From Aurantiochytrium sp. KH105 (Eukaryota > Sar > Bigyra > Thraustochytrida > Thraustochytriidae): a stretch of 64,000 bases of DNA. This document shows positions 21,622 to 62,379 of this stretch, piece by piece; positions within the stretch are counted from its first letter, which is position 1; every line of letters begins with the position of its first letter. The stretch spans positions 62,001-126,000 of the forward strand of contig BGKB01000008.1 in NCBI GenBank assembly GCA_003116975.1, given 5' to 3'. The translations under genes and the position numbers were made by a program. The notes beneath the pieces were generated by a model that worked only from the letters and a program-made list of their open reading frames with translations, was not told the DNA's origin and ran no database searches.

Positions 21622-24600
21622 AGTGTGCCTGGACTGCGAATTCTCGAATTTTGCGTGCTTCCATCTTTTGGCAAGCACCAACCTCACCTTTTGAACCAAG
21701 ACAAGTAATAAGAATAATTTTTCTCATTTGGCAAAATTTGTGAAGGTCTCTGGCATGAACAGCATTAAGATCAAAGTTCCCGCTCGTTTTAACATGTCTG
21801 CGATTTGACTCTGGTGCGTATGCTCATTTGTGTCTTTGCACACGTAAGACTACGAGAATAAAGAAGACTTTCCTGGTTCTGGTCGTTCTATGCATTGATA
21901 TTCGGATAGAAGTTCACATTTGCACGACAAGTTATCCAAAGAAGACATCGTTAAAAATTTATGCCGCAGGTCCGAGTGTGCGAACCACGGCCACTGGGCC
22001 GCCGCGCGGCCGCCACGCATCGCGTCCGATTGGGTGTAGGGTTCGGGCAAAGCGCCGCGCTTGCACGCTAGCTAGGATCGGCATCTCTTCTCGTCAACCA
22101 TGTGACAATATCCCTCTAGCCCTCTAGCCAGGTAAAAGGCTACCTCAATGAGTCGACGCATTACTACATCTATCGATTTGTAGCCCAAGCGCGAGCAACG
22201 ATTTTCTTGAGGCTGATGAGGGAAGAGTCAGAGAACCAAGATCAAAGATCCGTTACAAGCGCGAGTCAACCATCACCGTAAGGCCTAACAGGCCAAGCGT
22301 TCTGAAGGTTCCAAGGGCTCGCTTGCCTTACACACATTCGAGCAGCTGGCTCGAGCAGCTGGCTCGTGCGCGGCCTACTCGCGCGGCATGATCGCTGTGC
22401 AGTCAGGCGTGGGGGCCGAACGGCGCGCGGCCTAGCTACGCGCGCGCGCGCGCGCGCCGTACTTACTGTCCGTCTGCGCACCCGCAGACCAGACGAGTAT
22501 AGCCTGCCCAGCGTGGGCATCGTGCCAACGCCATGCTTCATCTATAGAGCAGACCAGCGTAGACGGCCCGCTCGACCGTGCGGCTACGCTATGCGTTAGC
22601 TCGCGCGATCGGCGACTTACCGGGCGGTCCGTCGCCTCGCGAGCCTTGAACGATCTGCCGCCTCGTGCGCCTCCAGCGAGCGGAGTACCGCGCGGCGAGC
22701 CATAGCCAGCAATTCCTAATCCCAACCATCATCGATCTTTTCCACTCCTCGATGGATCAATAGATTTCGCGCTAAGTTTGCACCGTTAGCCAGCCCAGAA
22801 TTCAGAGTCCGGGCCTTGGCCGCGCCATACGCTCGCGCCGGAGCCTTGAGTTCACGATCCAAATAAATTAACATCAACAAAGGGCCTAGATCTAGAGTAA
22901 GGTCTCTGCTAAATCTTGCACACAACAGCACAGGTAGAATCAATTTTGTGGGAGTCTCGATGTCGGTCATTCGCCCTGGACGAGTCACTACGAGGACGGG
23001 TGACCAAATTTTCTCGTTATGCAAATCAGCGCTGTAGGCACAGGCACACTTGCCAGGCCGCAAGATGCGCCTCCGATTTGCAGACCCCACTCATGTCCAG
23101 GGTGAACATGCAAAGGTCCAAAAGCTTGATTCCTCTTGTTCCCTCTTTTCGCTTCACATCTCAATCTGCTCTCCTACTTATTTGGTGCGCGCGGCTCGCT
23201 CAGTTCGTTCAGATCGTTCAGTGTGCTCGACTTGCACAGCTCGCTTCCAACGTTCCGTGCGCTCGGCTCGCCCAATTGTGCTATGCCTTCACACGATCTA
23301 TCTGATTGCTCGGTGCTCTTGATAGCTGAAAATGAATCAGACATCATCAGCCGCATTTTGAGGTGGTCTCGATGCGATAGGCAGCTTGCACGAGTGAGTA
23401 TCGAATTCCGTGGCCTTGTTAAAGGGTTAATTTGCAAAATAGGAGCACTGCCCGACAAATACCTTTTCGACTGGATCCGCAACGACGCAAAGGGCTTTTT
23501 GTTTACAATGCCCTGGCTGTACGGTGCACATGGAGGCCGTGGAGTCTCGCTTAATCCCCAATGCCTATTTGCGACGACACTTTACTTTGCGCAACAACAA
23601 AGTTATTCATAAGTCACGATCAATTTTGTGCCAGACAACTTTTTGCAAGAGATTCTGTATGCTGGAGAGATTTCAGAGGCCAAAGGTGGCCATGCGACAA
23701 ATGTGCAGCTGACACAATAGAACTCTTTGGACCAAAAAAGCAAGGAAGCTTCGCAGCACAGTCTTCATTGTAAGTTCGGCCCGTGTTTTCGCTCGATTGC
23801 TCCGAAAATCTTGCTTCTTGCATGTGCCTACCAAACGGCACAATATACCGTGGAAACAACTATGACATGACTTGACGCCGACGCCACAAAAGTGGTGGAA
23901 TTAATTTGGCACCCACAGGGAGTTCCTTGCAGGCTATTCATGGCTTTACTCGTCCACGTTCTCACCAGCCACTATTTTGTGCGCCCTTCGGTAAGTCTAT
24001 CAAAGCTCGCAGCATGAATTGTTCAGATCATAGAGATCTGTGATGAACCGGATTGCTTCGTTTCTTGAAGTTGGCCAAAAAAACCATTTTCCGCTAGCAA
24101 TATAGCCTGCTTCGATAGATCCGACGGTTTCTTAGCGATCCTTGGTTTCACAGCCCTGCAAGCAGTCCATTTGTCTTATCATCTGCACGGTGAGGTGACG
24201 ATGCCAAACATCCGTGCTCATGCGTTAGTTCACAGTACGCCTCGAAAGTGGCGCGGAATGAGGCCTCACTTTACGCAGCGACAGCAGATCGGATTGGTGC
24301 TGAGGGCAACGAAATAGCTAGACTTTCATTGCACGTACGGATTTGCTGTAATCTTGCAAATCGTGTGACGATCTCTCTCCTCTTTTCGAATCAAGGTCTT
24401 TGGCAGACAATGGAATTGAGGGGAAGTCTGGAGTCGGACCCAGACACGCCTACCTAGGCCCAGCTAAGGCCTGGGGCCTTATTGCAAAAGCACCAAGCAC
24501 TCATGAGTCGAAAGGTTTCGTACTCCATGCCAATTTGCTTCTTTGCTTCCTTCGCAAGATATCTACTTGTGAGTGTCCGGTTGACATCAAGAACGACCTT

Positions 24601-24670
24601 GCAGCCGGCACTGTGGCAAAGAAACAAGGAGCAAAGAAACAAAGAAACAATGAAGCAAAGAAAGAAGCAC
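21622..24670. other. 3 kb spacer with no firm gene
   Basis: This is the longest gene-poor stretch of the first half. It has a CG dinucleotide run at 22439-22456, TCGAGCAGCTGGC direct repeats near 22330-22365 and CTCG/GTTCA-type repeats near 23185-23280. One small frame (23283-23612) is listed separately with low confidence. The rest may be long UTRs or relics. Confidence 0.45.
23283..23612 (+). CDS. Possible small hypothetical protein or gene relic
   Basis: A 109-residue ATG-started frame. Its start, SDIISRILRWSRCDRQLARVSIEFRGL, has the hydrophobic spacing of an F-box (IL..L..CD...LA.VS..FR.L), followed by PDKYLFDWIRNDAKGFLF. No other domain follows and the product is far shorter than usual F-box proteins. 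It may be a truncated relic or chance. No partner gene in the spacer supports it. Confidence 0.2.
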   Translation: MPSHDLSDCSVLLIAENESDIISRILRWSRCDRQLARVSIEFRGLVKGLICKIGALPDKYLFDWIRNDAKGFLFTMPWLYGAHGGRGVSLNPQCLFATTLYFAQQQSYS

Positions 24671-26728
24671 TTACTCGACAGTAACGCTCTTCGCAAGATT
24701 GCGCGGTGTGTCAATTTCGCAGCCTCGATAGTCGGCAATATAGTAGGCCAATAATTGCAGGGGGATCCCAGTGATCATGGCCGAGAAGAACTCGCTCGTG
24801 ATAGGCGTCTCGATAACAACCTCTGCTAACTCGTCAAGATCATGGTTACCCTCATCCGTAATGATTATCACAGAGCCTTTGCGCGCGACTACCTCTTGAA
24901 CGCCGGACTTTACCTTTTCGTAGATGACATCTGACTTGGGCGCCAGGATGACGACGGGCATCATCTCGTCAATAAGCGCAATAGGCCCGTGCTTCATCTC
25001 GGCTGCCGCATAGCCTTCGGCGTGAATATAACTGATCTCCTTGAGCTTCAGTGCACCCTCGAGGGCGACGGGAAAGTTCGTTCCGCGACCCAGATACAAG
25101 AAGTTGTGCGCATAGCGATAAGTGGACGCCATGTTTTGAATCTTGTTGAGCGTGTCTTCGTTGAGCATGCGCGCAATCTTGTCCGGGATCTCATACAGCT
25201 CCAAGCCGAGCCTGTTGGCCTCATCTTGCAAGAGGGCTCCAGTCCGGACGGCCAGCACAAGCGTGAACATGCTCAGCGCCATGACCTGGCCCGTAAACGC
25301 CTTGGTGGACGCGACGCCGATCTCGGGTCCAATGTGGAGATAAATGCCGGCGTCCGTCTCGCGCGCGATGCTTGAGCCAACAACATTGACAATGCCTACA
25401 CAGAGACAGCCATGCTTTTTGGCTACACGAACTGCCTCGAGAGTATCCGCCGTCTCGCCGGACTGGCTAATGACAATCACCACATCGTCCTTGAACAGGA
25501 CTGGGTTGCGGTATCGGAATTCGGACGCGTACTCTACCTCGACTGGGATCTTGGCGAGGGTCTCGATGAGATACTCACCGACAAGAGCAGCGTGCCAAGA
25601 TGTTCCGCAGCCACAGATGATGATGCGACGCGCGATAGCGAGGCGTTCGAGCGCTGGCATGAGGCCTCCGAGCGTGACTTTGCCTGAGTGCGGGTCGAGG
25701 CGGCCTCGCATGCAGTCGCGCAGCACGCGAGGTTGCTCCATGATTTCCTTGAGCATAAAATGCCGGTATCCGCCCTTTTCAATGGTCTGCAGGTTCATCT
25801 TGAGTTCGTGCATCTGGCGAATTACCTCCTCGGAGATTACCTTGTTAGAAAGTGCCATTTGACGCATAATCCGCGAGTCAAGCTTGTGAGGCATCATAGG
25901 ACCCTCGTCTTCGGAGGAAAAAAAACCGTCGCTCTGATCGGCGCCCTCGACGCATCCTGCAGCTGATGTCTCACCAGCTTCGACAAGCAAGCTGTCCCGC
26001 TTCATGCTCGAGACCGAAAATGAGTACTTAGTCTTGCCGGTTTTCTGATCATGCTCTCGTTGGCAGCTGACGATGTCCTCCTCTTCCAAGTACACGACCT
26101 TTGCCGTGAGACCCACGACAGCAGTCGCGTCGGAGGCGAGCACGAGGGAATCGTCGCTAACGCCAAGAATTAGCGGCGAACCACGCCGGGCGCCAACGAG
26201 GACGTTGGGCTTGCTTTCGTCAACAACGGCGATGCCATAGGCGCCTCGAACCTGAGTGAGGGCAAGACTCACCGCGCCAGCGAGCGAGAGGTTGGGCTCG
26301 AGCGACTGCACGTGGCGGATGAGCGCGGCCAGAACCTCGGTGTCGGTGTCCGAGACGAATTCATAGCCCATGGCCGAGAGCTTCTTCTTGAGGCTCGAGT
26401 GGTTCTCAATGATGCCGTTGTGCACGATGGCCAGCTTGCCGTCCGAGGAGGCGTGCGGGTGGGCATTGATTGCCGTCGGCGGGCCGTGGGTAGCCCAGCG
26501 GGTATGGGCAATACCGAGACTGGCATTGCCCTTGAAGTTGCGCCCGGCTACTGCCTGTTCCAGATTTGCGACCTTGCCGGCCTGCTTTTCAATTTCTAGC
26601 TTTGCGCCGTCGCGCGTGATTACGCACATGCCTGACGAGTCATATCCCCGATACTCCATGCGCTTCAGACCCTCGAGGAGGACCGCGACCGTTTCGCCAT
26701 CGCCGAGATACGCGATGATGCCGCACAT
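24671..26728 (-). CDS. GFPT1: Glutamine:fructose-6-phosphate aminotransferase (GFAT)
   Basis: The product has 685 residues with ATG start and no intron. It begins MCGIIAYLGD, exposing Cys2, the nucleophile of the class II glutaminase domain. HTRWATHG, HNGIIENH and DTDTEVLAALI are the other glutaminase blocks (~1-240). A eukaryote-type linker, Ser/acidic around 250-290, carries the region usually regulated by phosphorylation or UDP-GlcNAc. Two SIS sugar-isomerase domains follow (CGTSWHAALV, SQSGETADTLEA, LGRGTNFPVALEGALKLKEISYIHAEGY). The C-terminus is DTPRNLAKSVTVE, as in all GFATs. It makes glucosamine-6-phosphate in the cytosol, the first committed step to UDP-GlcNAc. It is head-to-head with a nucleotide-sugar transporter gene. 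Confidence 0.97.
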   Translation of the reverse strand: MCGIIAYLGDGETVAVLLEGLKRMEYRGYDSSGMCVITRDGAKLEIEKQAGKVANLEQAVAGRNFKGNASLGIAHTRWATHGPPTAINAHPHASSDGKLAIVHNGIIENHSSLKKKLSAMGYEFVSDTDTEVLAALIRHVQSLEPNLSLAGAVSLALTQVRGAYGIAVVDESKPNVLVGARRGSPLILGVSDDSLVLASDATAVVGLTAKVVYLEEEDIVSCQREHDQKTGKTKYSFSVSSMKRDSLLVEAGETSAAGCVEGADQSDGFFSSEDEGPMMPHKLDSRIMRQMALSNKVISEEVIRQMHELKMNLQTIEKGGYRHFMLKEIMEQPRVLRDCMRGRLDPHSGKVTLGGLMPALERLAIARRIIICGCGTSWHAALVGEYLIETLAKIPVEVEYASEFRYRNPVLFKDDVVIVISQSGETADTLEAVRVAKKHGCLCVGIVNVVGSSIARETDAGIYLHIGPEIGVASTKAFTGQVMALSMFTLVLAVRTGALLQDEANRLGLELYEIPDKIARMLNEDTLNKIQNMASTYRYAHNFLYLGRGTNFPVALEGALKLKEISYIHAEGYAAAEMKHGPIALIDEMMPVVILAPKSDVIYEKVKSGVQEVVARKGSVIIITDEGNHDLDELAEVVIETPITSEFFSAMITGIPLQLLAYYIADYRGCEIDTPRNLAKSVTVE

Positions 26729-27647
<919 letters not shown>

Positions 27648-28733
27648 ATGAGCGCCGAGCGAGCCGTGGTGCAGCTGCCCAACGGGCTTGAACTGCAGCT
27701 CAAATACGTTAGTCTGGCCCTGCTCATCATGCAAAATGTGGCGCTTGTTTTGATGATCAAATTGTCAAAGCTTCATCATCCCCCCGACAAACCGTCCTAT
27801 ATCTCATCGACAGCAATTCTCTGCGCAGAAGTGATGAAACTTGTTGCGTCTATTTTGCTAGAGTATCGAAGATTTGCCCGGGAAAACGAAGATGATGCAA
27901 GTTTTCGAGTGCATCTTTCAACGCAACTTGCCAAAGTTGAAACCCTCCAGCTCAGTGTGCCTGGCATTCTATACACAGTACAAAATAATCTACTGTTCAT
28001 GGCCCTAAGCATGTTGTCCGTTGGCGTGTACCAAGTATCCATGCAGCTAAAAATATTGCTCACAGCGGCAATGAGCTACGTAATTTTAGGGAAAAGACTC
28101 TCCCCAGTGCAAATTATATCACTCGTGGTTCTTACTTGTGGCGTCGCTGCAGTCCAACTATCACAAGTCACTAACAAGGAGAAGCCGTCCACTGGACTGC
28201 AAGAAGACAATCTTCAGCAACTTTGGGGCTTCGGTGCGACGGTTCTCGCGTGCAGCATCTCCGCTTTTGCGGGGGTGTATCTCGAGAAGGTTCTCAAGGC
28301 TGGCAGCCTTGTCTCGATCTGGATGCGCAACGTGCAGCTTTCGATATTTGGCATCTTGATTGGTTTTCTCACGGTTGTTGGCAAGGACGGCGACAAAATT
28401 GTAAAATTTGGATTCTGGGGCGGCTACGATTGGACAACGTGGATTGCCATATCCCTCCAAGCCTGGGGTGGTCTCATTGTCGCTGTTGTTATGAAGTATG
28501 CAGACAACATTCTCAAAGGCTTTGCCACAGCGGTCTCAATCCTCTTCATATCTTTCATATCTGCCGCCGTATTCGACACGGAGCTGAGCTTTCTTATGAT
28601 CGCTGGGACCATGGCTGTACTCCTGTCAGTGATCATGTACGCTGCGAACCCGTCACAAGCCGCAGACCCTCGCTCCGACGTTGCGCAGGGCGAAAGTGAT
28701 GATGTCAAGGAAAATCTTACCGCAGAGAAATAG
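27648..28733 (+). CDS. Golgi nucleotide-sugar transporter, SLC35A type
   Basis: The product has 361 residues from ATG 27648, with about ten hydrophobic spans. LKYVSLALLIMQNVALVLMI, STAILCAEVMKL, PGILYTVQNNLLFMAL, YQVSMQLKILLTAAMSY and LVVLTCGVAAVQL match the UDP-Gal/UDP-GlcNAc/CMP-Sia transporter family (pattern P..IYT.QNNL......L....FQV..QLKI). It should exchange a nucleotide sugar for the nucleoside monophosphate across the Golgi membrane. The C-terminal half has GVYLEKVLK, WMRNVQLSIFG and ADNILKGFATAVSI, all conserved. Substrate cannot be fixed by eye; divergence from GFAT makes UDP-GlcNAc attractive. The tail is acidic and cytosolic. Confidence 0.93.
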   Translation: MSAERAVVQLPNGLELQLKYVSLALLIMQNVALVLMIKLSKLHHPPDKPSYISSTAILCAEVMKLVASILLEYRRFARENEDDASFRVHLSTQLAKVETLQLSVPGILYTVQNNLLFMALSMLSVGVYQVSMQLKILLTAAMSYVILGKRLSPVQIISLVVLTCGVAAVQLSQVTNKEKPSTGLQEDNLQQLWGFGATVLACSISAFAGVYLEKVLKAGSLVSIWMRNVQLSIFGILIGFLTVVGKDGDKIVKFGFWGGYDWTTWIAISLQAWGGLIVAVVMKYADNILKGFATAVSILFISFISAAVFDTELSFLMIAGTMAVLLSVIMYAANPSQAADPRSDVAQGESDDVKENLTAEK

Positions 28734-29304
28734 GCTGAGCTTGATGGTCTGCTTCGCGTCAGCTGGCCGTTCTTTCGAGCTTGGCCAAGTTTACAGGCAT
28801 GTGCGCGTTGATGATTAGCAGAAGAGAGAAGAAAGATTGCAGACCTTACGGGAATCTGCGCACAGTTCACCAGTTTATCGATTGATGTATTGTGGAGCGG
28901 CAATTGCGGGTTTCTTACTTGAATTTGCTTCGCTTTGAAGATGTGCCAGTCTATCGTGTATTACTCTTGACTGAATGACTATCATTGGCTAGCCACATCA
29001 GATAGTGGTAGGCCTACCTACTACCGAATATTTAAAGTGCGTTTTTTTTGCACGACTCAGATCGTTATGCCGGGGCGCGCCGTGGTTTGTACCCGTGTTG
29101 GACATATAAGTTGAACAAGCTTCGAGGAACTGCGTCGTATTTTGCTCGGTCACGTCGCCACTTGAGCGCACCGCCAAGTTGATCGCGCCGCCAAGTTGAG
29201 CGCGCCGCCAAGTTCAAGTTCAAGTTGAGCGCATCATGTGTAGACCTTCTCCCGGGCCGTCTTGCGTCTGCGACTAACAAAGGGAGCTGAGCCGAGCAGT
29301 GCGA

Positions 29305-29319
29305 GGGGGGGGGGGGGGG
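29305..29319. repeat. Poly-G tract (15 G)
   Basis: One of five pure G runs of at least 10 bases in the window; the others are at 42371-42383, 47302-47315, 47765-47775 and 47779-47788. Confidence 0.9.
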
Positions 29320-29772
29320 CTGCATTTTGAGCGGGGTTGTTACAAAGTCGCGTCGCTGCTTAATCCAAGCGGCTCTTGCATTCAATGAAGGTTAAGCGGC
29401 CTGTACAACTTGTAAAATTGCTCTACGAACGTGGGGGTAGTAGTGTGGATAAATCAGCGTCATAGTTCTGAAAAAAGATGATTCGTGTGAACGTAAAAGA
29501 AATCTCCCCTCCGCGCGTAGCGCGATGGGGAGGAAGAAGTTGGAGTCTCACGCAGCTACTCGGAGACTGTGGTTGTTTGCCTTGGTTGCAAGGGAGTCTA
29601 ACGATTAGGAAGAGCCCGCTTGCAAATGGCCACCCTGGGAGCGGTTAACTCGAAACTCGCATTGGGTTCGAGTGCTCGGGTGATTCGGGTCTGCTGGCGG
29701 ACGAGAGCGCGCGTGTGCGTGGCTTCGTGCAGCTTAGACTATGATTCATGCTGTGAATAGCATGGTGAAATG

Positions 29773-29934
29773 AAATGCGTGGGCTCGTGTAAAAGCAGCA
29801 TTCAAGGTGGTGGAATAATGTGCTGGGCCTTCGTCAAGGCGACATCATCCAGCAATGCGCTAGGCCTTCGTCAAGGACGGCATTGCTCACTGACGGAATG
29901 ATACGCGGGGCCTCGTTAAGGCGGCATCATTGCA
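29773..29934. repeat. Degenerate ~40-bp tandem repeat, about four units
   Basis: Units begin AATG, contain GGCCTTCGTCAAGG (or a variant) and then GGCATCATT-like sequence. Starts are near 29773, 29817, 29853 and 29897. The second and third are closest (GGCCTTCGTCAAGG identical), while the first is strongly diverged. Confidence 0.6.
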
Positions 29935-30201
29935 GTGGGTGCGATCTCGGATCGCACGCGGAAAGAGTGCGGTTCCCATGGTGTTCGCACACTGGGTGTG
30001 CACTTTGGCTCTGCTTGTGCGTGGATGCTATAGCAGTTTACCACCTGGTGTCAAGGTGATGGGAAGCTCATCGTGGCGGGCATCGTCGATTAGTTAGGTA
30101 TCCGAAGCTCAAATCAAATGGAGGCCGCGGCTTCAAAAGCCATTATCGACCGTGCAAAGGATGCCATAATCAAGGATTGCAATCGCGGCGAGACGTATCC
30201 T

Positions 30202-30463
30202 CGTGGATTTTTTCACTCCCGCTCAGCAAAAGTCTAACCTCAAGTATTTGGTCGGACGGATCAAAAGTGCCTGTCCGTAACCCGCCATTCCACACGCAGG
30301 ACAATGGCACAAACTACACCTTTGTCGGTGTTCTTCTTTCCTACATTCACATTCAAGAAAGTTGATGCTCTTTATACCTTCCTTACCGCTTAGTGCCCAA
30401 AGTCAATCTTCCTACCGGTGGTCGCTCGCCTCGACATCACTTCGTTTGCACTGCAGAACAGGC
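30202..30463 (+). pseudogene. Duplicated 3' end of the ankyrin-TIR gene
   Basis: This stretch is roughly 90% identical by eye to the reverse complement of 15398-15664. It encodes the last 25 TIR residues in frame to the same TAA (VDFFTPAQQKSNLKYLVGRI...; two residues differ from the 15.6 kb copy). It then carries ~190 bases of downstream sequence with scattered substitutions and a small indel near 30390. Nothing of the ankyrin part or TIR core is present, so it is a gene-tail fragment. It lies downstream of and convergent with the Cas1-SGNH gene, whose stop is 130 bases further on. Confidence 0.85.
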
Positions 30464-30594
30464 TAAGTCAAAAGATCGCTTGTCATTCTCGCACCGATCT
30501 CTTGCCAATCGACGTCACTAATCTCCATAAGACTCCCTCCATCTTGGCGCTGAGAAAATCAAGTTCCCAGGTCTTTGCTCTTGTCGTCTTCTAA

Positions 30595-33378
30595 TTAAGG
30601 GTTCTCCGCATCAGTGCTGTGCACAGGCACATACGTGGGTGCTCCAATCGTGCGATGGAGTTCCGAGACTGAGCTCGCGTAGTCCAAGTTTGCATGAGGC
30701 GAGACAACCTTGAGAAAGAACACCGAAAAACCGCCATAAACATCCATGGTGAAAAGCATGACCGCCGCCAGCCCTAAGACAAGAAGTCCTGTGTTGGGCG
30801 AGATGGCAACGCCACCCCCTTGCCCCTTTTTCTGCTGCTTGGACTTCTCAGAAGCAGGTAAAGGAGAGGGAGGGTGCAGTTGCTTTATTGCATAGAATAG
30901 CTGCTGTGCTGCCACCTGATAGACGTCGTCTTCAAAGTGGACACCATCAATGCAGAGTTTCGACGCATTTTCCGTCAACGCATGCATGTTGATGGAAAAT
31001 TCCGCAAGCTTGTCAGCAATGGAGACGAAATCGTCGTTCAGTTTCACCGCCACGTCCGGGTCAATTGAAGCCACAAAAGGTCCAGCCAGCTTCGCTTCGG
31101 ATACATGAATTGGCCCAAGCAGCATGAGACGCTCGCGCCCTACTTGAGAGCTTATGGTTGCGAGTTCGGCGCGATGCGAAAACGGTTTCATATCCCGGAC
31201 CCACGCACCCGCAACAACTATTTCCGCTGCTGCATTGTTGGCTCCCATCGTGGATACAACGCCAGCCATACCCTTGCTTCTTTCTGCGGCCACGAATCGC
31301 ACCTTAGCGGGAGGCGTCGTGGATACCGTCCACGTCGTGTCAAACTTGGGAACAACATCCCCTGACTTCGGGTCAGATGCAAGCCATCGACCATGACTTG
31401 GTTCGAGTAGAGCATGAAAGGCGGCCGCAACGCGAAGCGTATTTGAGTCTCCTACAAAAAGAAAATTGCGTCCCGCCACGACATTGCGGGCCTCCCTCGA
31501 GGTAAAAAATTGAAACTGGCAAGCATTTTCCGCGAGATGATCAGCCCAGGCCCACTTGCGACCATCGCAAAAGAGATTGGGGGGTGCTTTGCAGCGCCCT
31601 TGATCGGAATGGACCCAATCTCCCCGGACAACCTCGTCCAGGCACGCCTCTCGAGAATAATGATGGGCAGGACCGCGCATGGGGCCAGCATTCGGAATCG
31701 CGCCGTGTGGGGCAAGGACGGGAAGAGCTTGTACTGCGGCCACGGCGCAAATGAAACCCAAAGCAAAGGTGAAAATTGCTTGCGGTCTCGAGCTCGCCGT
31801 GCTTTCAGCTTCAGAAACTATGATTCTTGGGGTCGCTAATTTGTGCTCGACGCCAAGAAAGAGCGCGGTGCCAAGCAATACAATGAGAACGAACACTAAC
31901 GGCCAGGTTAGTTGCAGAAACTGTGCCGTCCACGCTACAATAGCTGCACCTGCGAGAAGAAGACCACTTCGACCGAGGAAACACAGTGCCTCCGAAGAAG
32001 AGTCTGGAATGAGCAAGGCGCGCGTGACCATCGTTGTGCGGAAAAGGCGACGCGCCAGTGCAAAGTACACAAAAGTAACGAGGGCCATATTGACCTTGGG
32101 GAGCTCCGGCACAAAGACAAGGACGGTCTTAGCGTTGCTCGTCAGCCAGATGTGGTGCTGCATAAGGTACGTTTCGAGAGTGTACTTGCCAATGTTAGCA
32201 AGTACACCAAGGTGGATTTGGCGTAGCCAGGGCGTCAAATTTCGGAAAAACAGGTAGGTGAGCAGCGGTATCATAAAAGTATACGGGTTCCAGGAGTTGA
32301 AGTGCAGCTTTGGAAGTGGTAAAATTTCTGTGGCCCACCACCAAAATGCGACCAGGAGCACGGCAGCCGTAGAGCCCTTAATGAGCCACATCTGGTGCTT
32401 GGGCAGACCTTCCACAATCCGAATCCACTGCATGGACTGCGGAAAGTTGCATGCAAAGATCATACCGAAAAACGTCGAATAGTGGTCCAGACCGCTGCGG
32501 AAATGCCACTCGTAGCGAATGCCGTACGCGCCAACGGCTGCTCCAGGATGCGGGTCATTCGATATCGGCGAAAAAACAAAATTGAAGACCGATTTGAACT
32601 CCCAGATCATGTATATTAGCACTCCTGCGCAGAGCAACTTTATACGCACCTGATACTGGGTATGATTTATTTCCTTGTAAGCGCGCATGATTACAAAAAC
32701 GAAAAGGAAGTAAAACGTATGCAGAGGGCAAATGTAGTAGAGTACATACATGTTGTTAAGTGTGAGGCAGAGAAAGAGGACGAGAAAGTTAAGACGCCAC
32801 AGCATTTGCGCAAAACGCACAAAACCAAAGTCCTGCTTGATGTAAAAGAAACTGAAATTCCCGAAACCGGTCATCCAAACGTAGCATGAAATCATAACAC
32901 GCACCGAGTTGTACACCTCGGATTCGTGAAAATAGTGATAGAGGAGAAACACGGTTTGCATCCAGCCCTTCCATTCCTCGGTCTGGTCGCGATTCACGAT
33001 GTCGTTACTTTGTGGATCGTGTTGCACGGATCCAATGGCAAAGATGAGCACCGTGAGACAAATGAACCAAAAGAAGTCTGGATTGTGCGTCTTTTGGGCG
33101 TGTGCAAAGGCGGGTCTATTTTCGCACGCCCATGTGAAAAGCATGATGGCTCCAAGTACTGACAATTCGCGTAAGAGGAGCATTATGCTCTGTCGCGTCA
33201 TCTTTAGCGCAGGGATCTTCTTAGACATCAGGCTGGGGTCCACCTCTTCTGGCTCGGCGCACAGCTCGCGCAGCTTGCCGAGCGCGAAGGCCACAATGCA
33301 CGGCCCAAGCAAGAAGACAACGCTCAGAGTTGACGTGGCCACGTCCGGCACCCCGTAGGAAACGCCTCCAAGCTTCAT
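30595..33378 (-). CDS. Cas1-type polysaccharide O-acetyltransferase fused to a C-terminal SGNH (TBL-like) domain
   Basis: The product has 927 residues from ATG 33378. Residues ~20-535 are a polytopic Cas1p/RWA/CASD1 acyltransferase: EEWKGWMQTVFLLYHYFHES and WMTGFGNFSFFY (~135-180), then EWHFRSGLDHYSTFFGM (~290-306), then IGKYTLETYLMQHHIWL (~396-412). Residues ~570-840 are an SGNH esterase-fold domain: GDWVHS, FLFVGDSNTLR (GDS 643-645) and DGVHF (~809-813), giving the Ser and Asp-x-x-His pair of TBL/PC-esterase proteins. A final membrane span lies at ~863-889. Together these move acetyl groups from acetyl-CoA into the Golgi and onto sugars. In animal and fungal CASD1/Cas1p the SGNH domain is N-terminal; here the order is reversed. 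It is divergent from an SGNH-hydrolase gene and near a SIAE-like esterase gene. Confidence 0.9.
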   Translation of the reverse strand: MKLGGVSYGVPDVATSTLSVVFLLGPCIVAFALGKLRELCAEPEEVDPSLMSKKIPALKMTRQSIMLLLRELSVLGAIMLFTWACENRPAFAHAQKTHNPDFFWFICLTVLIFAIGSVQHDPQSNDIVNRDQTEEWKGWMQTVFLLYHYFHESEVYNSVRVMISCYVWMTGFGNFSFFYIKQDFGFVRFAQMLWRLNFLVLFLCLTLNNMYVLYYICPLHTFYFLFVFVIMRAYKEINHTQYQVRIKLLCAGVLIYMIWEFKSVFNFVFSPISNDPHPGAAVGAYGIRYEWHFRSGLDHYSTFFGMIFACNFPQSMQWIRIVEGLPKHQMWLIKGSTAAVLLVAFWWWATEILPLPKLHFNSWNPYTFMIPLLTYLFFRNLTPWLRQIHLGVLANIGKYTLETYLMQHHIWLTSNAKTVLVFVPELPKVNMALVTFVYFALARRLFRTTMVTRALLIPDSSSEALCFLGRSGLLLAGAAIVAWTAQFLQLTWPLVFVLIVLLGTALFLGVEHKLATPRIIVSEAESTASSRPQAIFTFALGFICAVAAVQALPVLAPHGAIPNAGPMRGPAHHYSREACLDEVVRGDWVHSDQGRCKAPPNLFCDGRKWAWADHLAENACQFQFFTSREARNVVAGRNFLFVGDSNTLRVAAAFHALLEPSHGRWLASDPKSGDVVPKFDTTWTVSTTPPAKVRFVAAERSKGMAGVVSTMGANNAAAEIVVAGAWVRDMKPFSHRAELATISSQVGRERLMLLGPIHVSEAKLAGPFVASIDPDVAVKLNDDFVSIADKLAEFSINMHALTENASKLCIDGVHFEDDVYQVAAQQLFYAIKQLHPPSPLPASEKSKQQKKGQGGGVAISPNTGLLVLGLAAVMLFTMDVYGGFSVFFLKVVSPHANLDYASSVSELHRTIGAPTYVPVHSTDAENP

Positions 33379-34084
33379 CTTGCCAAGTAGCCTTTCCGGC
33401 GTGACGCGTATAGGCCCGCTGGCGTTGAGATGAACCTGGCAGGGCTGGTGCAAGCTGCAGCTGGCCGCGGACAGGATTAGTGATCCTCGCTGACGATACT
33501 ACTACCCGTGGTATACCCAGATGAGGTTTGCTGTAGTCCTAGTATAACTGGAAAATGACGCGGCCGTCAATCCCGTAAGGTCCGCCGAAAAAAAAAGCCT
33601 TTTATTGAAGTTCTGAAGTGTGTCTAGAGCTGCCAGACTGGCAGACTGGCAAAGTTATGCCAGACTAGCAAAGCTGTGCAGGCTAGCAGGTTACTAGTAC
33701 TCTCGTACACTCAAGTATTCCAATTTCTCTGCTTGCAGCGAAAGTTCAGATTTGTTTGTTCGTTGAGGTCACGAAACTTTTTCTTTCCTTTATTCGGAGT
33801 TTATTTTCCCTCTGTCTATTTTCCCTCTGTCGAGCATGCTCGTTCTGAACCTTTGTGCAGGAAGGCGCGCAGTACCTCAACCCGCGCGTGCAGCAGAGAG
33901 TGAGAGGCGAGGTGAGGCAAGGCAAGGCAGGCAAACGCGAGGAAGCGCAAGCGCGCACGGTCGCAAGGTCGCTTGATCGGTCGGCCGTGGGCTGCCTGGC
34001 GCACGCTTGATTGGTCGCCCGCACGTTGAAGAGGCCAACTGTCTTGCGAGCGAGAGTTGTGCCAGAAGCATTGGCGTCATCGCT
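33379..34084. promoter_or_regulatory. Divergent upstream region of Cas1-SGNH and SGNH-hydrolase genes
   Basis: About 0.7 kb with degenerate GCCAGACTGGCA/GCCAGACTAGCAAAG repeats (33629-33690), an A-run near 33587-33597 and AGCG/AGGC-rich sequence. No gene was seen. Confidence 0.4.
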
Positions 34085-53489: not shown

Positions 53490-56249
53490 TTACTCTTCTT
53501 CGTCATCGCTGGAGTCCGAGGAAATGTCGGAAAAATGTTGCTTGCCATCGTCTGGGCCAACTTCCACATCTGAATTGGGTTCTTCCTCCTCCAGAGCAAA
53601 CCAGGGAGGCAAGCTTGCTCGCGTATACATATCGCTCACTACATCCGAGGGTTGGACTCTGATCACACGAAGAAGGCCCTGCGCATCATCTGCATCAATA
53701 GAGCCCACATGCGCTGGCGTGCTCGTGAGACGCATCTTGGGTTCCATCTCATTGCGTGGTTTGCGAGACTTGACGATGGCCTCATTCATTGCACCGCTCA
53801 AGACCATTTGCACGCCACTCTCTTGAAACCTGTCCAGAAATCGGTCACAAACCTTACGAGGCATGGCCGGAATTCCTTGCGCTACCGCAGACTCGGCATC
53901 GGCAGCATCGTAAAACCACATGTGGTGCGAGACGACAAGCACATGGCGGGCGCAAAGTTTGCCTTCAAGCACTTGATGCTCCAACCATTCGGCCTGGCGC
54001 GCAGCAGTCCTGGCACTCCTTCCATGGGTGCGGCTACTGCTGCTTTCTGCCTTCTCGCCATCCAGATCTCCTCCCTCCGTGGCGAGCAGTGCGAGCTCAA
54101 AAGAGTCGATGACGAGAATCATGACTCCCTGAACGTAAAGAGAATAGTAGTTGTCGCCAAAGTCTGTCCGATACTCGTCGAGAGGACGCCCATCGGGAAC
54201 GCAGACGACTGCAATGGCCGAGTCTAAACGACAGAGAGCAGGTTTCAGTTCATCAGCCTCTCCCAGTGCACCTCCACAAATAACGAGTCGTGGCGCCGGT
54301 TCCAGACGGTTCACACGGCGCATCGTTGCCTCAATGTTAGCAGTCGTGGCGCCTGCAAGAGAACCGAGGTGCACAAGAAGAAAGGATTCGTGAAATTTGC
54401 CCTCTTCTGGCTCGGAAAGCCCTGCAAATTGATGACGTTCAGCGCGATGGAAGCGAGCAGCTTCGTCGGATTCAAAAAAAAGCTTGAAGATGTTCTGATT
54501 GCGAAGCGCCAAGCGCTGCGCAAGCATACCCATGATGCAGTTGCGAATTCGTGAACCCGCGCGGGAGTTCGAAAAGGTCCCGACGGTACGTGCCCAAGCG
54601 GGCAGCGATTTTTGCTTCGGGAATTCGGGCAGCCGAACGTCGGCCCCGGGCCCCTTGAGCGGCGGTGGCGGACCCGTGAGCACCCGTACAGCGGCTTGTG
54701 CGCAAATCTCAAAAAGTGACGGCACAGGTCTGGTTGGACGCAGCAATATGGCAGCGAAATCAACGCCTTCAAAGGCTGGATGTTGCTTAATGGACGCTAG
54801 ACAGTCTGTGGCGCCAATGCGGTCTTCCGGTGTCTCGACAAAAACTCGCTCAAGGAGGTCCTGCAGAGTTGGTGAAAAGTAGTTTGGCATTTCGTAGTTG
54901 AGAGCCTGCGTTTTGAGAAAGGTCAGGTACGGGCTGTTGCCCTTGAAGGGAATGCGACCACTATGAAGCTGAAAAAGAGTGGTTGCTAGTGCCCAGAGAT
55001 CCAGAGCATAGGTCGGTGCTGCTTTTCCCGCGATGGCCTCGGGACTCATGTACTCGGGTGTGCCAACAAAGTTCGGACCATTCAGGGTCGTGTCGTCAGT
55101 ATCATAAGCCGTGCCGAAATCGATAAGCTTGAGCTGCTCGACTCGGCCCCCATACGCTGGGTCTGCAAAGAGCATCATGTTTTCCGGTTTAATATCGCGG
55201 TGGATAACGTGTTGGGTTTGAAGGTACTCGAGCGCATTGACAATTTGTGCCGCGTAAAAGAGCGCTTCTGAAGGAGGAAGACCCACCAGAGCAGTACGCC
55301 CGTACCTCATTCGGGCCCAAAGTTCGCCGGCTGTCGCCAGCTCGCTCACGTAATAGAGACAGCGAGTGTCCTGCATGGTGAAGAAGAGTTTAACGACGTT
55401 GGGATGATTTAGCCGCAGCAGCAATTTCTTTTCCATGTGAAGCTCGTTGTTCAGATTGGGATGCCTTCTGGACATACGTTTAGCTTTCTCCTTGTCGACG
55501 CTCTTGATTGCAAAGCGCTCACCTGTGCGGGAAAAGACGGCGCTGTGTACCTCGGAGTAATTTCCTTCGCCAAGGAGCTCGTCGACCTCAAACATGCTCA
55601 TGGACAGCTTTGTGGGACAGCCTTTGATACTTTTGTGCTTGGCCACGTAGGCGTCTACCTTGTCCTGAGCCGACTTTGAGCCTGTTTGCTTTTCGAGTGT
55701 TTCGACACGGCGGCGCAGCCACGAGTTGTCTGGCTCGAGATCAGCAGCCACGCAGTACGCGTCGCGTGCCTCTTCAAGAAGACCCAGTTCAGCCAAGGCC
55801 TGTGCCTTTCGGTGGTGTGCCTTGACCCACGCAGGGCGCAAGGCGACGGCCTGCTCGGCATCGCGAAGAGCGGCTTCGAAGTCGCCTAGCTTTGCAAGTG
55901 CTGCCGCACGGTTGCACAGAAGTGCTGGCAAGAGCTCCACGCTTTGCACAACCGTCTGCGACTCCCCGTCCCCTCTGGTTGCCGCTGCGGCCGCGGCTGC
56001 GCGAGCAAATCTCGTCAGCGACGCCGCGGCTGCACCGGCGCGATTTACGAGCGCAAGGCTCTCTTGTTTCGAGTTGTCGTCGTTGTCGTGGTCGTCGTCC
56101 CGTTTGCCAGCGTCATCGCTGGGGCTGCCGACAGCCTCCAACACGGCGGCAATTGCCTCGGCGTAGAGCGCCGCGGCCTCGTCGAACTTGCCCGAGGAGA
56201 ACGCCTCGTTCCCGCGCACCTTGAGCTCTTCGGCGCGCGCCGCTGCCAT
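53490..56249 (-). CDS. TPR - PDK1-like kinase - CPPED1-like pseudophosphatase fusion
   Basis: The product has 919 residues from ATG 56249. Residues ~3-200 carry TPR repeats (AEELKVRGNEAFSSGKFDEA, LCNRAAALAKLGDFEAALRD, AHHRKAQALAELGLLEEARD), the Hsp70/Hsp90-docking type. The kinase domain (~225-510) is PDK1-like: LLGEGNYSEVHSA, FAIKSVDKEKA, HRDIKPENMML, LIDFGTAYD, NFVGTPEYMSPEAI, PFKGNSPYLTFLKT. The T-loop position held by Ser in PDK1 (SFVGT) is Asn here, and no PH domain is present. Residues ~600-880 resemble the metallophosphatase CPPED1 (FGDNYYSLYVQGVMILVIDS, HVLVVSHHMWFYD, KVCDRFLDRFQESGVQMVLSG). Its metal motifs are gone: GD is GG, GNHD is DGRP, GHxH is GAMN. The C-terminus is acidic. No intron interrupts any domain. 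Confidence 0.88.
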   Translation of the reverse strand: MAAARAEELKVRGNEAFSSGKFDEAAALYAEAIAAVLEAVGSPSDDAGKRDDDHDNDDNSKQESLALVNRAGAAAASLTRFARAAAAAAATRGDGESQTVVQSVELLPALLCNRAAALAKLGDFEAALRDAEQAVALRPAWVKAHHRKAQALAELGLLEEARDAYCVAADLEPDNSWLRRRVETLEKQTGSKSAQDKVDAYVAKHKSIKGCPTKLSMSMFEVDELLGEGNYSEVHSAVFSRTGERFAIKSVDKEKAKRMSRRHPNLNNELHMEKKLLLRLNHPNVVKLFFTMQDTRCLYYVSELATAGELWARMRYGRTALVGLPPSEALFYAAQIVNALEYLQTQHVIHRDIKPENMMLFADPAYGGRVEQLKLIDFGTAYDTDDTTLNGPNFVGTPEYMSPEAIAGKAAPTYALDLWALATTLFQLHSGRIPFKGNSPYLTFLKTQALNYEMPNYFSPTLQDLLERVFVETPEDRIGATDCLASIKQHPAFEGVDFAAILLRPTRPVPSLFEICAQAAVRVLTGPPPPLKGPGADVRLPEFPKQKSLPAWARTVGTFSNSRAGSRIRNCIMGMLAQRLALRNQNIFKLFFESDEAARFHRAERHQFAGLSEPEEGKFHESFLLVHLGSLAGATTANIEATMRRVNRLEPAPRLVICGGALGEADELKPALCRLDSAIAVVCVPDGRPLDEYRTDFGDNYYSLYVQGVMILVIDSFELALLATEGGDLDGEKAESSSSRTHGRSARTAARQAEWLEHQVLEGKLCARHVLVVSHHMWFYDAADAESAVAQGIPAMPRKVCDRFLDRFQESGVQMVLSGAMNEAIVKSRKPRNEMEPKMRLTSTPAHVGSIDADDAQGLLRVIRVQPSDVVSDMYTRASLPPWFALEEEEPNSDVEVGPDDGKQHFSDISSDSSDDEEE

Positions 56250-56797
56250 CTTCGCGCTCACGACTTGTTGGCTCGCGGACGAAATGTGACTTTGGTTACC
56301 TGGTCGTCGCAACAGCCAACATCAGCCGTTGACGACAAGACTGAAGAAATGACGATCGAATGTTCCGTTCTTTTCATTTCGGAGCTTTCATCCAGGATGC
56401 CGACCACGTAAGGTCATCCATCGTCCCCAGCCCCACTCGCGCCATCCTCACGACTTCTAAAAGCCGAGTAAGCCTATAGGCCTACACGCAGATCGATGCC
56501 TTATCGCTCATGCCATTGGGTCCCAGAGTCAAAGTCCTGCTATAACCGCCTCTTGTTGTAGAGTCAACTTGTACTAGGCTTGTAACTAGGCCTACTACAT
56601 CGGAGAGCAAGAGAGCGAGCGAGCGACCGCGACGCAGAGTGCCATCTTCGCCTCGGCGTGGTGCAGGGCCGCTGCTGCTGCTGCTGCTGCTGCTACGGCG
56701 GCGGCGGCTGTGGCTGCTGCTGCTGCTGCTGCTGCTCCTGCTGCTGGAAAAGTGCGTGGGTTCTCTGTGCTAATCGAACTTGCCTGCCTGCCAAAAG
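56250..56797. promoter_or_regulatory. Divergent upstream region of the TPR-kinase and TPT-pyruvyltransferase genes
   Basis: 0.55 kb with two TAGGCCTA palindromes (56477, 56587), GAGAGCGAGCGA near 56605-56625 and a CTG/CGG tract next to the fusion gene. Confidence 0.5.
56671..56746. repeat. CTG/CGG trinucleotide tract
   Basis: Blocks of (CTG)7-8 on either side of a (CGG)4 block, in the probable 5' UTR of the TPT-pyruvyltransferase gene, ending ~50 bases before its ATG. Confidence 0.9.
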
Positions 56798-59242
56798 ATG
56801 CCGATGACACCCGCCAAACCCGAGCCCGGTGCGCGTGGCTTTGGTGGCGAGAGTGCGTCTGACTTTGCGGTGGACAACAACGGCAAAAGCATCGTACCGG
56901 GCGCCGCAAATCGCGATGCTGCAAGTGTTGTCATAATGGGTGAGCCCAGGGCGGAACTCGAAGCACAAGATGGGCAAGGTGTTGCTCGAGACGCTACTCC
57001 CGCAATTGCGAGTCGGGATTCGCGCGTTGTCCTCAAGGTGGCTGCCCTCACTGCCATATGGTGGGCGACAAGTGCGCTTTTCTCAGCCAACTCCAAGAAA
57101 GTGCTGCGTGGATCAGTAACAGAAGGAGTAGACCCCTTTTTGGCATCTGCCATGGTGACTTCTCTTCAATTGCTTGGTTCGGCAATCCTCGCTTTGGCTA
57201 TGGCAGCGGCGCGCGGCGAACTTTCGTTCTTGTGCAGCGTTTGCAGAGCCGCGCCCCGAATTGGGAGCTTGCATGGTCTGGGTAACAATGCTACTAATTT
57301 ACTGGTCGTTTTCTCAGGCGTCTCCGGGGCCCTGACGTACAAGGCTTTGGAACCCTTATTCGTGATTCTGGCCCTCCGCGTGCTCGACCGGCAACGGTAC
57401 ATGAAGGAAGTGACGTGGATAGGCTTATTCTGGATCTCTTTCGTTTGCGTGGGCGTTGGCATCGCGAGCTACCATCCTCCGTTTCTCCCTGCTGTCCTGA
57501 TCTCTGCAATGGTGTGCAATGCAATGTTTGGCTCCCGCACGGTGCTCATAAAAAAGTTTCGCCAGGCTTCGGAGAAAGGCACCAAGGACGCGGAGATGCT
57601 CAACATCTTTCTTTCGACGTGCGTCGTTGGCTTTGCTGTGGTTGGGTGTTCGACGCTTATCGTGACAGCAGTGCATAGTCCTGATGAGGTTGTTCTGGCG
57701 TTCCAGCTAGCCTGGTGCTCTGCCACGTTTTTGTCATCGATCTACTACTTTTCATACAATCTGGTATCTTTCTTGGCTCTAGAATACGTAACAGCGCCAT
57801 CACATGCATTGTTGAAGGCTGGCAAAGGCCTCACTGTGCTTGTCTCGGCCGGTCTCTTTCTCGATGAGGACTATTCTACGCTGCAGTGGTTTGGGCTATT
57901 CCTTGCGATGCTCGGGGTGACTTTGTTTTCGCACAGTAAGGAATACACATCCGAAAAGGTGGGGACCTCAATGCAATATTGGTTATCTGCCGCGCAGCGT
58001 GCGAGTGGGACGTCTCTGTTGGCAGGTTTTTTCTTTCTGGCCTTTCACGGGCTTCGCGACGGTGGCATGGATGTTGTAGCGAGTCAGGTGTCGACTGCGG
58101 GTATTTGGTCTACGTCTTCTGAAAGCCAGCTGGGATTCTCAGACCAAGACCCATGGTTTACATGTCTTTCATCTGTGCGAGACCAGCAGTACGCGTCTCT
58201 GGAGGAAGTTTTTGCACGCGGCGACATCCTTGATTCAGGCATCCTCGTAGCAGACTCTATTCCCGATCGCGATTATGAAAGTCTAGCTGCAGAACAGGGT
58301 TTTTGGAGTCTTGTGAGGGATCTTGGCAAGTCCTCGAGGAGCGTCGCCAGGTGCCAAGTGGTCGAGGCCGCGACTGCAAAATTCCCAACGTGTGACGAGA
58401 CGGTATTCTCAAGGCACAAGCTCCTCCTTTCGCTTGGAGGCGAAGATGCGACTGATCGAAGGCGCCGAGGATCCCTGCATGGCCAGCTTAAGCTCGTAGA
58501 GTTCGCACTGCGTCATAACATGACGTTTCTCGCGATGCCCAGGAGCTTGGTGAAGACGAAAAAGGATAGGATGCGAAGGGACGCCGTTCTTCTTCGTGAA
58601 ATTATCACAAGTACGATTGGTCTTGAAAAGTCTGGGCGCAAGATTATATTCACATGGCGCTCCCGTGCGAGCCTCGAGCTGGCTGTGCAACACTTTCACT
58701 TTGTCGACAATCGTTTTGTGCCAGACACAACACTGCACTTGGCGCCTCTTGTGCCGAGCAAGACATTTGCAAGCGCGTCTCTGGGGCCCGTCGACCTCGT
58801 TTTCTTGTGGCAGGTCGGCGCTCGGGATGGGCTGTCTTCCGAGAGGAGCTTCACCGAGGAATGGATCCAGGAACACCTGAATGCTTTGCCCGACGGTCGT
58901 GGTCAAGGAGTATCTTTCCGTCTTCTTGACCGGGAATCCATGGCTTCCTTGGACAGCAAGATCACATTGACCATTGACGCTGAGCTTGCGTTGGCACAGG
59001 CGGCGGCCGTAATTGCCTCTGGCAAAGTTATTGTTTCGGATCGTCTGGAATGGTCGCTCTTGGCATTACTCGCGCGCAAGCCGCACGTCATCGTTGGCGA
59101 TGGAACAAGGGATGTCCTGGCAGCGCGAGCTTCTGCGTTAGAAATGTGCGAAGCGAGCCAGGAAACGCTCGCATATCGCATCGCTCTCGAACCTTACAGT
59201 GCCTTGTCACAGGCTGTGGAGATGCTCAGATCTCGACCGTAG
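56798..59242 (+). CDS. TPT/PEP-translocator-like transporter fused to a polysaccharide pyruvyltransferase domain
   Basis: The product has 814 residues from ATG 56798. Residues ~75-390 form a ten-span triose-phosphate-translocator-family carrier: ALTAIWWATSALFSANSKKVL, GVSGALTYKALEPLFVILAL (KALEP is the TPT signature KAxEP), YYFSYNLVSFLALEYVTAPSHALLKAGK. An extra span (~405-425, TSLLAGFFFLAFHGL) then places the rest on the opposite membrane side. Residues ~480-814 resemble polysaccharide pyruvyltransferases: HKLLLSLGGED, NRFVPDTTLHLAPLVP, VDLVFLWQVGARDG, ASGKVIVSDRLEWSLLALLARKPHVIVGD (family end VI.TDRLHG.I.A.L...PHV). These enzymes move the enolpyruvyl group of PEP onto sugars. TPT relatives include PEP/phosphate antiporters, so the fusion suggests PEP import coupled to lumenal pyruvylation. 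The family His of DRLHG is Glu here (DRLEW). Confidence 0.85.
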   Translation: MPMTPAKPEPGARGFGGESASDFAVDNNGKSIVPGAANRDAASVVIMGEPRAELEAQDGQGVARDATPAIASRDSRVVLKVAALTAIWWATSALFSANSKKVLRGSVTEGVDPFLASAMVTSLQLLGSAILALAMAAARGELSFLCSVCRAAPRIGSLHGLGNNATNLLVVFSGVSGALTYKALEPLFVILALRVLDRQRYMKEVTWIGLFWISFVCVGVGIASYHPPFLPAVLISAMVCNAMFGSRTVLIKKFRQASEKGTKDAEMLNIFLSTCVVGFAVVGCSTLIVTAVHSPDEVVLAFQLAWCSATFLSSIYYFSYNLVSFLALEYVTAPSHALLKAGKGLTVLVSAGLFLDEDYSTLQWFGLFLAMLGVTLFSHSKEYTSEKVGTSMQYWLSAAQRASGTSLLAGFFFLAFHGLRDGGMDVVASQVSTAGIWSTSSESQLGFSDQDPWFTCLSSVRDQQYASLEEVFARGDILDSGILVADSIPDRDYESLAAEQGFWSLVRDLGKSSRSVARCQVVEAATAKFPTCDETVFSRHKLLLSLGGEDATDRRRRGSLHGQLKLVEFALRHNMTFLAMPRSLVKTKKDRMRRDAVLLREIITSTIGLEKSGRKIIFTWRSRASLELAVQHFHFVDNRFVPDTTLHLAPLVPSKTFASASLGPVDLVFLWQVGARDGLSSERSFTEEWIQEHLNALPDGRGQGVSFRLLDRESMASLDSKITLTIDAELALAQAAAVIASGKVIVSDRLEWSLLALLARKPHVIVGDGTRDVLAARASALEMCEASQETLAYRIALEPYSALSQAVEMLRSRP

Positions 59243-61978: not shown

Positions 61979-62379
61979 GTGCACTTGATCGATTTCTATA
62001 AACAGAGAAAACGTTGCGTCCAGGCACGCGTGCACAGAGTTTTACTAAATTGTTGTCCAGCTACTGCGCCCGCTAAAGATAACTTGATTGGCTTCTAGTG
62101 AATCCTCGAACAATGGTGGAAACAGGAAGTCATGGCGAAAGCTGGCCTTCGTTTTGCAGACACAAAATTCTCCTTGGCCGTATATTTCCCCTCTACTCTG
62201 CTCGGCTCTGCTTTACTCGACGCGACGCAAATCTATCCTTTTCTGCTATTGCTGCTCCTCCTATTGCTTTTCTCTCCTGCTTACGTCCCGTTTCGTGCTG
62301 CGCTTATTTTAAAATTGTGTGCGATCTGCACTTCTTGCTTGTCACCGTCCTTGCTAGCTTGCCACAGCTAGCTAGCTCG
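61979..62379. other. Convergent 3' spacer
   Basis: 0.4 kb between the ends of DLST and the hydroxylase-family gene. CT-rich, no gene seen. Confidence 0.5.

Follow-up and report, generated by a model that had tools for sequence, protein, structure and literature searches.

The window analysed here (64,000 nucleotides, positions 62,001 to 126,000 of contig BGKB01000008.1 of Aurantiochytrium sp. KH105; contig C8 of the 76-Mb assembly) carries a gene in which a TPT/DMT carrier is joined to a Pvg1-like PF04230 domain in one reading frame. The fusion is real, and the reading that we consider the probable one is that its protein is a self-feeding Golgi transferase derived from phosphoenolpyruvate (PEP) import and pyruvylation, with an uncertain present donor. 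In this reading a Pvg1-like GT-B transferase would have exchanged its single-span anchor for a secretory-pathway carrier of the TPT/DMT type. This carrier would move a phosphorylated donor out of the cytosol and into the Golgi lumen, where the tethered domain would spend it on glycan modification, a single protein thereby serving as both importer and consumer. We infer the Golgi location, the lumenal side of the domain and the hand-over of the donor; the ancestral donor was most likely PEP. The donor of the window copy is uncertain because a histidine of the enzyme half has been replaced by glutamate and a Lys-Arg pair of the carrier by Lys-Gly.

The frame is uninterrupted, and an in-frame stop (56771-56773) lies upstream of its ATG. 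A PF04230 search of the whole assembly marks four places. A paralog on contig C132 (L008:1443-3854, minus strand) is a single frame of 804 codons with the same layout. The claim of an earlier note on this DNA, that a single polypeptide combines a TPT-family carrier with a pyruvyltransferase-like domain, is confirmed by the one frame and by this paralog of identical layout. Identity between the paralog and the window protein over aligned residues is 65%, with 82% in the carrier, 53% in the linker and 62% in the C-terminal half. No conservation is seen in the first 79 residues (23% identity, with synonymous sites saturated). Selection was estimated between the window gene and the paralog by the Nei-Gojobori method with bootstrap 95% intervals. 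The ratio of non-synonymous to synonymous substitution rates (dN/dS) is 0.127 (0.086-0.188) for the carrier, at a synonymous divergence (dS) of 0.89, 0.213 (0.142-0.302) for the C-terminal half and 0.288 (0.11-0.536) for the linker (residues 379-460), with a dS of 1.33 for each of the last two. The motif region 618-767 gives 0.195 (0.088-0.312). The frame has persisted through a long divergence, with both halves constrained and the junction more loosely so.

Three copies of the C-terminal half are present in the assembly; two more matches at E about 3 are chance. The third is a copy of the window gene on C132 (L033:2041-4461, minus strand; 94.6% nucleotide identity), in which Gly replaces Glu751. 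Since locus pairs in the assembly are 93.1-97.4% identical (11 pairs, ten found by the carrier search and one by the PF04230 search), this copy is taken to be the allele of the other haplotype. Relative to the window gene, its carrier half or leader is shifted out of frame by three indels (+1, -1, -8), an objection to a working enzyme, and the gene is there either broken or mis-assembled. The intact, diverged paralog lies about 5 kb upstream of the frameshifted copy on C132, and the assembly yielded no second copy of the paralog. A dispersed repeat of about 0.6 kb (window 29471-30093) has 48 matches listed in the genome, some of them partial; two inverted copies of it stand between the two fusion genes of C132, on either side of a frame of 455 codons that has no match in Pfam.

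The block VIVSDRLEWSLLALL..PHV, which the earlier note regarded as pyruvyltransferase-like, is present in the C-terminal domain of the fusion protein. The case for PF04230 (curated cut-off 25.3 bits) leans on relatives in the same genome because the window protein by itself fails the cut-off. A PF04230 profile match, whose absence from the C-terminal half the earlier note named as a refutation, is thus lacking for the window protein (whole protein: residues 618-767, E=0.13, 12.6 bits; C-terminal half alone: 14.7 bits) and found for the C-terminal half of the paralog (26.8 bits). The whole 804-residue paralog lies just below the cut-off with 24.2 bits, and the six-frame search of the genome gives 26.6. 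The window protein alone was rejected as evidence for PF04230, its scores being too weak and its plasmid matches at chance level.

A profile of the three copies, run against all PDB sequences, has a single match at E up to 10, which is Pvg1 of S. pombe (5AX7, E=0.0052); the alignment pairs the RDxxS-type arginine and the DRLH-type motif. Against seven bacterial proteins with Pvg1-like motifs, hhalign aligns 170 columns (E=6.4e-4), in which both motifs are colinear. A tblastn search of 72,556 plasmids with the C-terminal half of the paralog identifies 25 records, 24 of them Rhizobium (best E 0.05); among the 20 plasmid matches listed, 16 are annotated as polysaccharide pyruvyl transferase family protein, three have no feature there and one is in an unannotated record. 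In a maximum-likelihood tree of 34 PF04230 rows, the three fusion copies cluster together (100/100) within a 14-row Pvg1-like set (96/89). Pvg1 itself, available as a fragment only, was left out of this tree, its bacterial rows are called Pvg1-like by motifs, and the program places every row somewhere, kin or not. The best PDB match, the best Rhizobium match and the tree agree in suggesting a Pvg1-like domain, each being weak singly.

Several results, besides the low PF04230 scores of the window protein, weigh against this reading. The hhalign probability for the seven bacterial proteins is just 28%, the C-terminal half of the window protein draws four chance-level matches from the plasmids by tblastn, the branch of the fusion copies in the tree is long (2.4), and an AlphaFold2 model of the domain made with seven Rhizobium relatives is unusable (mean predicted local distance difference test score 33.8). 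Searches with the C-terminal profile, which used two short patterns and can miss distant kin, gave 64 pattern matches in viral contigs and 91 in prokaryote genome contigs, none of them confirmed; the bacterial Pvg1-like alignment gave 70 pattern matches in viral contigs, again with none confirmed. Two weak matches of the C-terminal domain in 299 genomes of one bacterial phylum (E 0.005 and 0.006) were set aside as chance, covering only columns 52-137, before both motifs. PHROGs has no match for the window protein.

The active site was compared with 29 bacterial rows from one phylum (43 matches listed in 28 of 120 genomes, 32 with loci, from which three with long frames, L064, L071 and L074, were excluded). 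Excerpts of PMC4872226 propose D106, R217 and R337 as catalytic in Pvg1. By alignment the D106- and R217-equivalents are kept in both intact copies of the fusion, the D106 position being assigned less surely because the alignment is gapped there. The PEP-contact arginine is found in 3/3 fusion copies and in 29/29 bacterial rows. At the R337 position the bacterial rows have Arg (24), Ser (two), His, Ala and Lys (one each). The PEP-contact histidine, invariant in the 29 bacterial rows, is lost from all three fusion copies; Glu takes its place in both intact copies and Gly in the frameshifted allele, and the exchange of His for Glu to which the earlier note drew attention is therefore real. The lysine of DNSYGK is lost as well and the R266 position is Gln, two further changes that tell against a PEP enzyme and that one Rhizobium relative shares. 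In CsaB, H308A and H308R are inactive, H308K and H308S are partly active and both changes of R148 are inactive (excerpts of PMC10435577). Canonical pyruvylation by the fusion is doubtful because the enzyme half lacks both the PEP-contact histidine and the DNSYGK lysine, which leaves this part of the earlier note unsupported as stated. The domain has retained part of its active site, with a residue invariant in the sampled relatives swapped for Glu in both intact genes.

The carrier half (residues 80-378) gives 69.9 bits with PF03151 (cut-off 30; E=3e-19), the match running from position 2 to position 291 of the 291-position model, and the KALEP signature of the TPT family is present as claimed. 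The lysine of KALEP-type motifs has a role in phosphate binding. Plastid translocators bind phosphate by a Lys-Arg pair, and Lys followed by Val, Ala or Gly is a mark of nucleotide-sugar-type members of the family. The closest PDB match of the carrier by sequence is 5Y78 (E=1.4e-4), a Galdieria translocator which we take to be the Galdieria TPT. It was deposited as a putative hexose phosphate translocator. At the second site the window carrier has Lys-Gly where 5Y78 has Lys-Arg, which is a further point against PEP as the present donor, and with the tpt model TIGR00817 it reaches 51.8 bits (cut-off 317.9). On these two grounds the PEP/phosphate antiporter proposed in the earlier note is not supported. 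The gene pair L009/L010 of the same genome, the top match of the TPT model, has Arg-Arg at the second site. In the GDP-mannose transporter Vrg4, a conserved lysine of transmembrane helix 9 binds phosphate (excerpts of PMC6789118). A text search of PMC6981301 for the phosphate-site residues found no mention of them.

One alternative is that put forward in the earlier note, an active PEP/phosphate antiporter that supplies an active lumenal ketal-pyruvyltransferase. It would account for the R217-equivalent arginine in 3/3 copies and for the conserved acceptor Asp, and the partial activity of some H308 variants indicates that CsaB tolerates some changes of the histidine (excerpts of PMC10435577). 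The acidic Glu at the PEP-contacting position in both intact copies, the loss of the DNSYGK lysine and the change from Lys-Arg to Lys-Gly in the carrier nevertheless make it rather unlikely. A working precedent exists in S. pombe, where Pet1p/Pet2p are reported to supply PEP to Pvg1p in the Golgi, so that separate proteins achieve the same (excerpts of PMC4872226, PMC10435577 and PMC6801904). Given these reports, the route of PEP into the Golgi is not the unsolved problem that the earlier note took it to be, and the fusion cannot be said to solve it; the fusion would rather tie together two parts already functionally paired in S. pombe. The C-terminal half and its motif region are under purifying selection, the Asp106- and Arg217-equivalents are conserved, and both intact copies have the identical Glu despite a dS of about 1.2; it is on these grounds rather unlikely that the domain is a catalytically dead remnant, retained for binding, dimerisation or targeting of the carrier. 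Such a remnant would fit with loss of the histidine that all 29 bacterial rows keep, with His as the R337-equivalent of the paralog (as in one of the 29 rows), with the broken allele and with the faster evolution of the C-terminal half than of the carrier (0.213 vs 0.127, with slightly overlapping intervals).

The same genome has a second carrier-PF04230 fusion, found on contigs C16 and C41 as proteins that are 98.6% identical and are taken to be haplotypes. It consists of a multi-span half, a strong extra span (residues 486-504, Kyte-Doolittle mean 2.14 over 19 residues), a PF04230 domain and a glycosyltransferase-like C-terminal tail. As support for the favoured reading this fusion has its own weaknesses: in hmmscan its PF04230 domain remains below 25.3 bits (22.0 for the whole protein, 23.7 for the part), reaching 26.8 only by adding neighbouring matches in the genome search, and both the multi-span half and the tail are silent in Pfam. 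A TPT-profile hmmsearch on the carrier half found no match; hhalign of this half against 19 TPT frames of the same genome gives E=8e-4 over 274 columns (probability 25%). It has KLVEP in place of KALEP and no second-site Lys at the aligned position. We are moderately sure that the multi-span half is a divergent carrier of the same superfamily.

Residues 546-1161 of the second fusion match L007 at 34%. L007 (L007:1694-4333, minus strand, contig C308) has one N-terminal span, a PF04230 match (43.4 bits) and, at its end, a region of the glycosyltransferase family PF04488, which is presumably GT32-like; phmmer of L007 against the PDB gave nothing relevant. Two further frames (C36:518948-520810 and C17:433735-435600) align with the second fusion (33% identity) over its L007-like part, leaving its carrier half unmatched. 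In the tree the PF04230 domain of the second fusion clusters with L007 and one bacterial row (100/97), outside the Pvg1-like set, and it retains Arg, Arg and His. Between C16 and C41 there are 16 synonymous and no non-synonymous differences in the PF04230 region, and 24 and two, respectively, in the carrier half. The simplest reading of these relationships would be that two PF04230 lineages were joined to carriers independently; one fusion event followed by a domain swap is possible. Of the two, the second fusion is the better candidate for a true import-and-pyruvylate enzyme. Beside such a second fusion with an intact PEP site, both halves of the window gene might have switched donor together, the carrier having lost its Arg and the enzyme its PEP-contact His in favour of a non-PEP donor, probably a nucleotide sugar; we put this forward tentatively and think it unlikely.

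Golgi carriers have their ends in the cytosol. If residues 403-419 span the membrane, the C-terminal domain lies opposite the ends of the carrier, which for a Golgi carrier with cytosolic ends is the lumen. Were this span not transmembrane, the domain would be cytosolic with the imported donor out of its reach, an arrangement that we regard as quite unlikely, although the span comprises just 13-17 residues and is weakly hydrophobic (Kyte-Doolittle mean 1.37 over 17 residues; 1.21 in the paralog) and the sole N-glycosylation sequon of the window domain is missing in the paralog. The hydropathy of the span is within the range of the weaker peaks of the carrier, and the second fusion, with the same order, has the strong extra span described above. 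All four cysteines of the C-terminal domain are conserved in the paralog, and the spacing of two of them (Cys519 and Cys784) is near that of the pair in the C68-C373 disulfide of Pvg1 (excerpts of PMC4872226). Conserved cysteines with Pvg1-like spacing favour an oxidising compartment, short of proving it.

That two neighbouring genes, or an assembly artefact, have been misread as a single gene is very improbable: the copy of the window gene on C132 is broken into three frames, yet the frame is uninterrupted in the window gene and in the paralog at a dS of about 1.2, and the two-gene reading was rejected because the linker is alignable and under constraint between the window gene and its diverged paralog.

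Having weighed these alternatives, we retain the self-feeding transferase as the preferred reading. To our knowledge, the import of a donor and the lumenal modification of glycans are usually carried out by separate proteins. A carrier-enzyme fusion is a natural test of direct donor hand-over. That one genome has two fusions of the same kinds of module, their PF04230 domains coming from different lineages, suggests a favoured pairing; the best evidence that this pairing is meaningful is the second fusion. The fusions also extend the pyruvyltransferase candidates to a further eukaryote and supply a natural substitution at the PEP-contact histidine. Searches of open PMC text returned no paper on a covalent carrier-pyruvyltransferase layout (polysaccharide pyruvyl transferase/triose-phosphate transporter fusion; PF04230 + PF03151), none on a pyruvyltransferase in a thraustochytrid, and, for a fused nucleotide-sugar-transporter/glycosyltransferase, only unrelated papers. 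Each module has been described before, and so has their task, carried out by two separate proteins; it is the covalent union for which these searches gave no paper.

Table 1. Features of the carrier-transferase fusion, of the second fusion and of glycan-related neighbouring genes (window positions unless a locus is given).
Feature	Position	Strand	Remarks
Carrier-transferase fusion, coding sequence	56798..59242	+	814 codons (amino acids); ATG at 56798, stop ends at 59242; one uninterrupted frame
TPT/DMT carrier half, residues 80-378	57035..57931	+	PF03151 match
KALEP motif	57341..57355	+	Lys182 aligned with Lys of VVKSAEP in 5Y78; agrees with K[AS]xEP
Lys343-Gly344	57824..57829	+	Aligned with Lys-Arg of NTIKRVII in 5Y78; paralog likewise Lys-Gly
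Extra span, residues 403-419	58004..58054	+	By hydropathy short and weakly hydrophobic; would place the C-terminal domain in the lumen
C-terminal domain, residues 461-814	58178..59239	+	Probable Pvg1-like PF04230 lineage, by three-copy profile, hhalign and tree
Cys519	58352..58354	+	34 before the D106 equivalent (Pvg1 C68: 38 before)
Asp553	58454..58456	+	Aligned via bacterial relatives with Asp of GGGNFGD; putative position of Pvg1 D106
Arg621	58658..58660	+	Aligned with Pvg1 R217 / CsaB R148 (PEP contact); kept
Arg749	59042..59044	+	Aligned with Pvg1 R337; Arg in the window gene, His in the paralog and one Rhizobium relative
Glu751	59048..59050	+	Replaces the family His (Pvg1 H339 / CsaB H308)
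Cys784	59147..59149	+	33 after the H339 equivalent (Pvg1 C373: 34 after)
Second fusion	L005:1399-5184 (C16)	+	1262-codon frame
Second fusion, other copy	L006:1891-5676 (C41)	-	1262-codon frame
Sialate acetylesterase-like SASA	17485-19473	-	Pfam
GFAT-like SIS+GATase	24674-26728	-	Pfam
Nucleotide-sugar transporter	27582-28733	+	PF04142, E=1.6e-94
Cas1p-type acyltransferase	30598-33453	-	Pfam

Elsewhere in the window, glycan-related genes lie near one another (17485-33453). The gene at 53490-56312 (minus strand) encodes TPR repeats, then a protein kinase domain and, after these, a long C-terminal region for which Pfam has no match at E<1e-5.

Pvg1p of S. pombe is described as the only characterised eukaryotic ketal-pyruvyltransferase (excerpts of PMC4872226, PMC10435577 and PMC6801904) and as a type II protein anchored by one N-terminal membrane span (excerpts of PMC4872226). 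The fusion resembles this Golgi enzyme (5AX7) at the D106 and R217 positions, in the window copy also at R337, and in a cysteine spacing close to that of C68-C373. It differs from Pvg1p in being anchored by a whole carrier, instead of a single span, and in having Glu at the position of His339. Pet1p/Pet2p, the Golgi PEP transporters, are reported to fill the role suggested for the carrier half, a likeness of function, and unlike that half they are not fused to the transferase. With CsaB of Paenibacillus alvei and the bacterial PF04230 enzymes the fusion shares the Arg148-equivalent; unlike them, it has neither the His308-equivalent nor the DNSYGK lysine (taken as the Lys328/K361 equivalent). 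The carrier is like Galdieria 5Y78 and the plastid TPT family in its nearly end-to-end match to PF03151 and in keeping both the lysine of the KALEP-type motif and that of the second site, and unlike them in the Lys-Gly of this site and in its score far under the TIGR00817 cut-off. The second fusion of the same genome has the same order as the window gene (multi-span half, extra span and PF04230 domain in one frame) and differs from it in a very divergent carrier, a PF04230 domain from a different lineage that retains His and Arg, and an additional C-terminal region.

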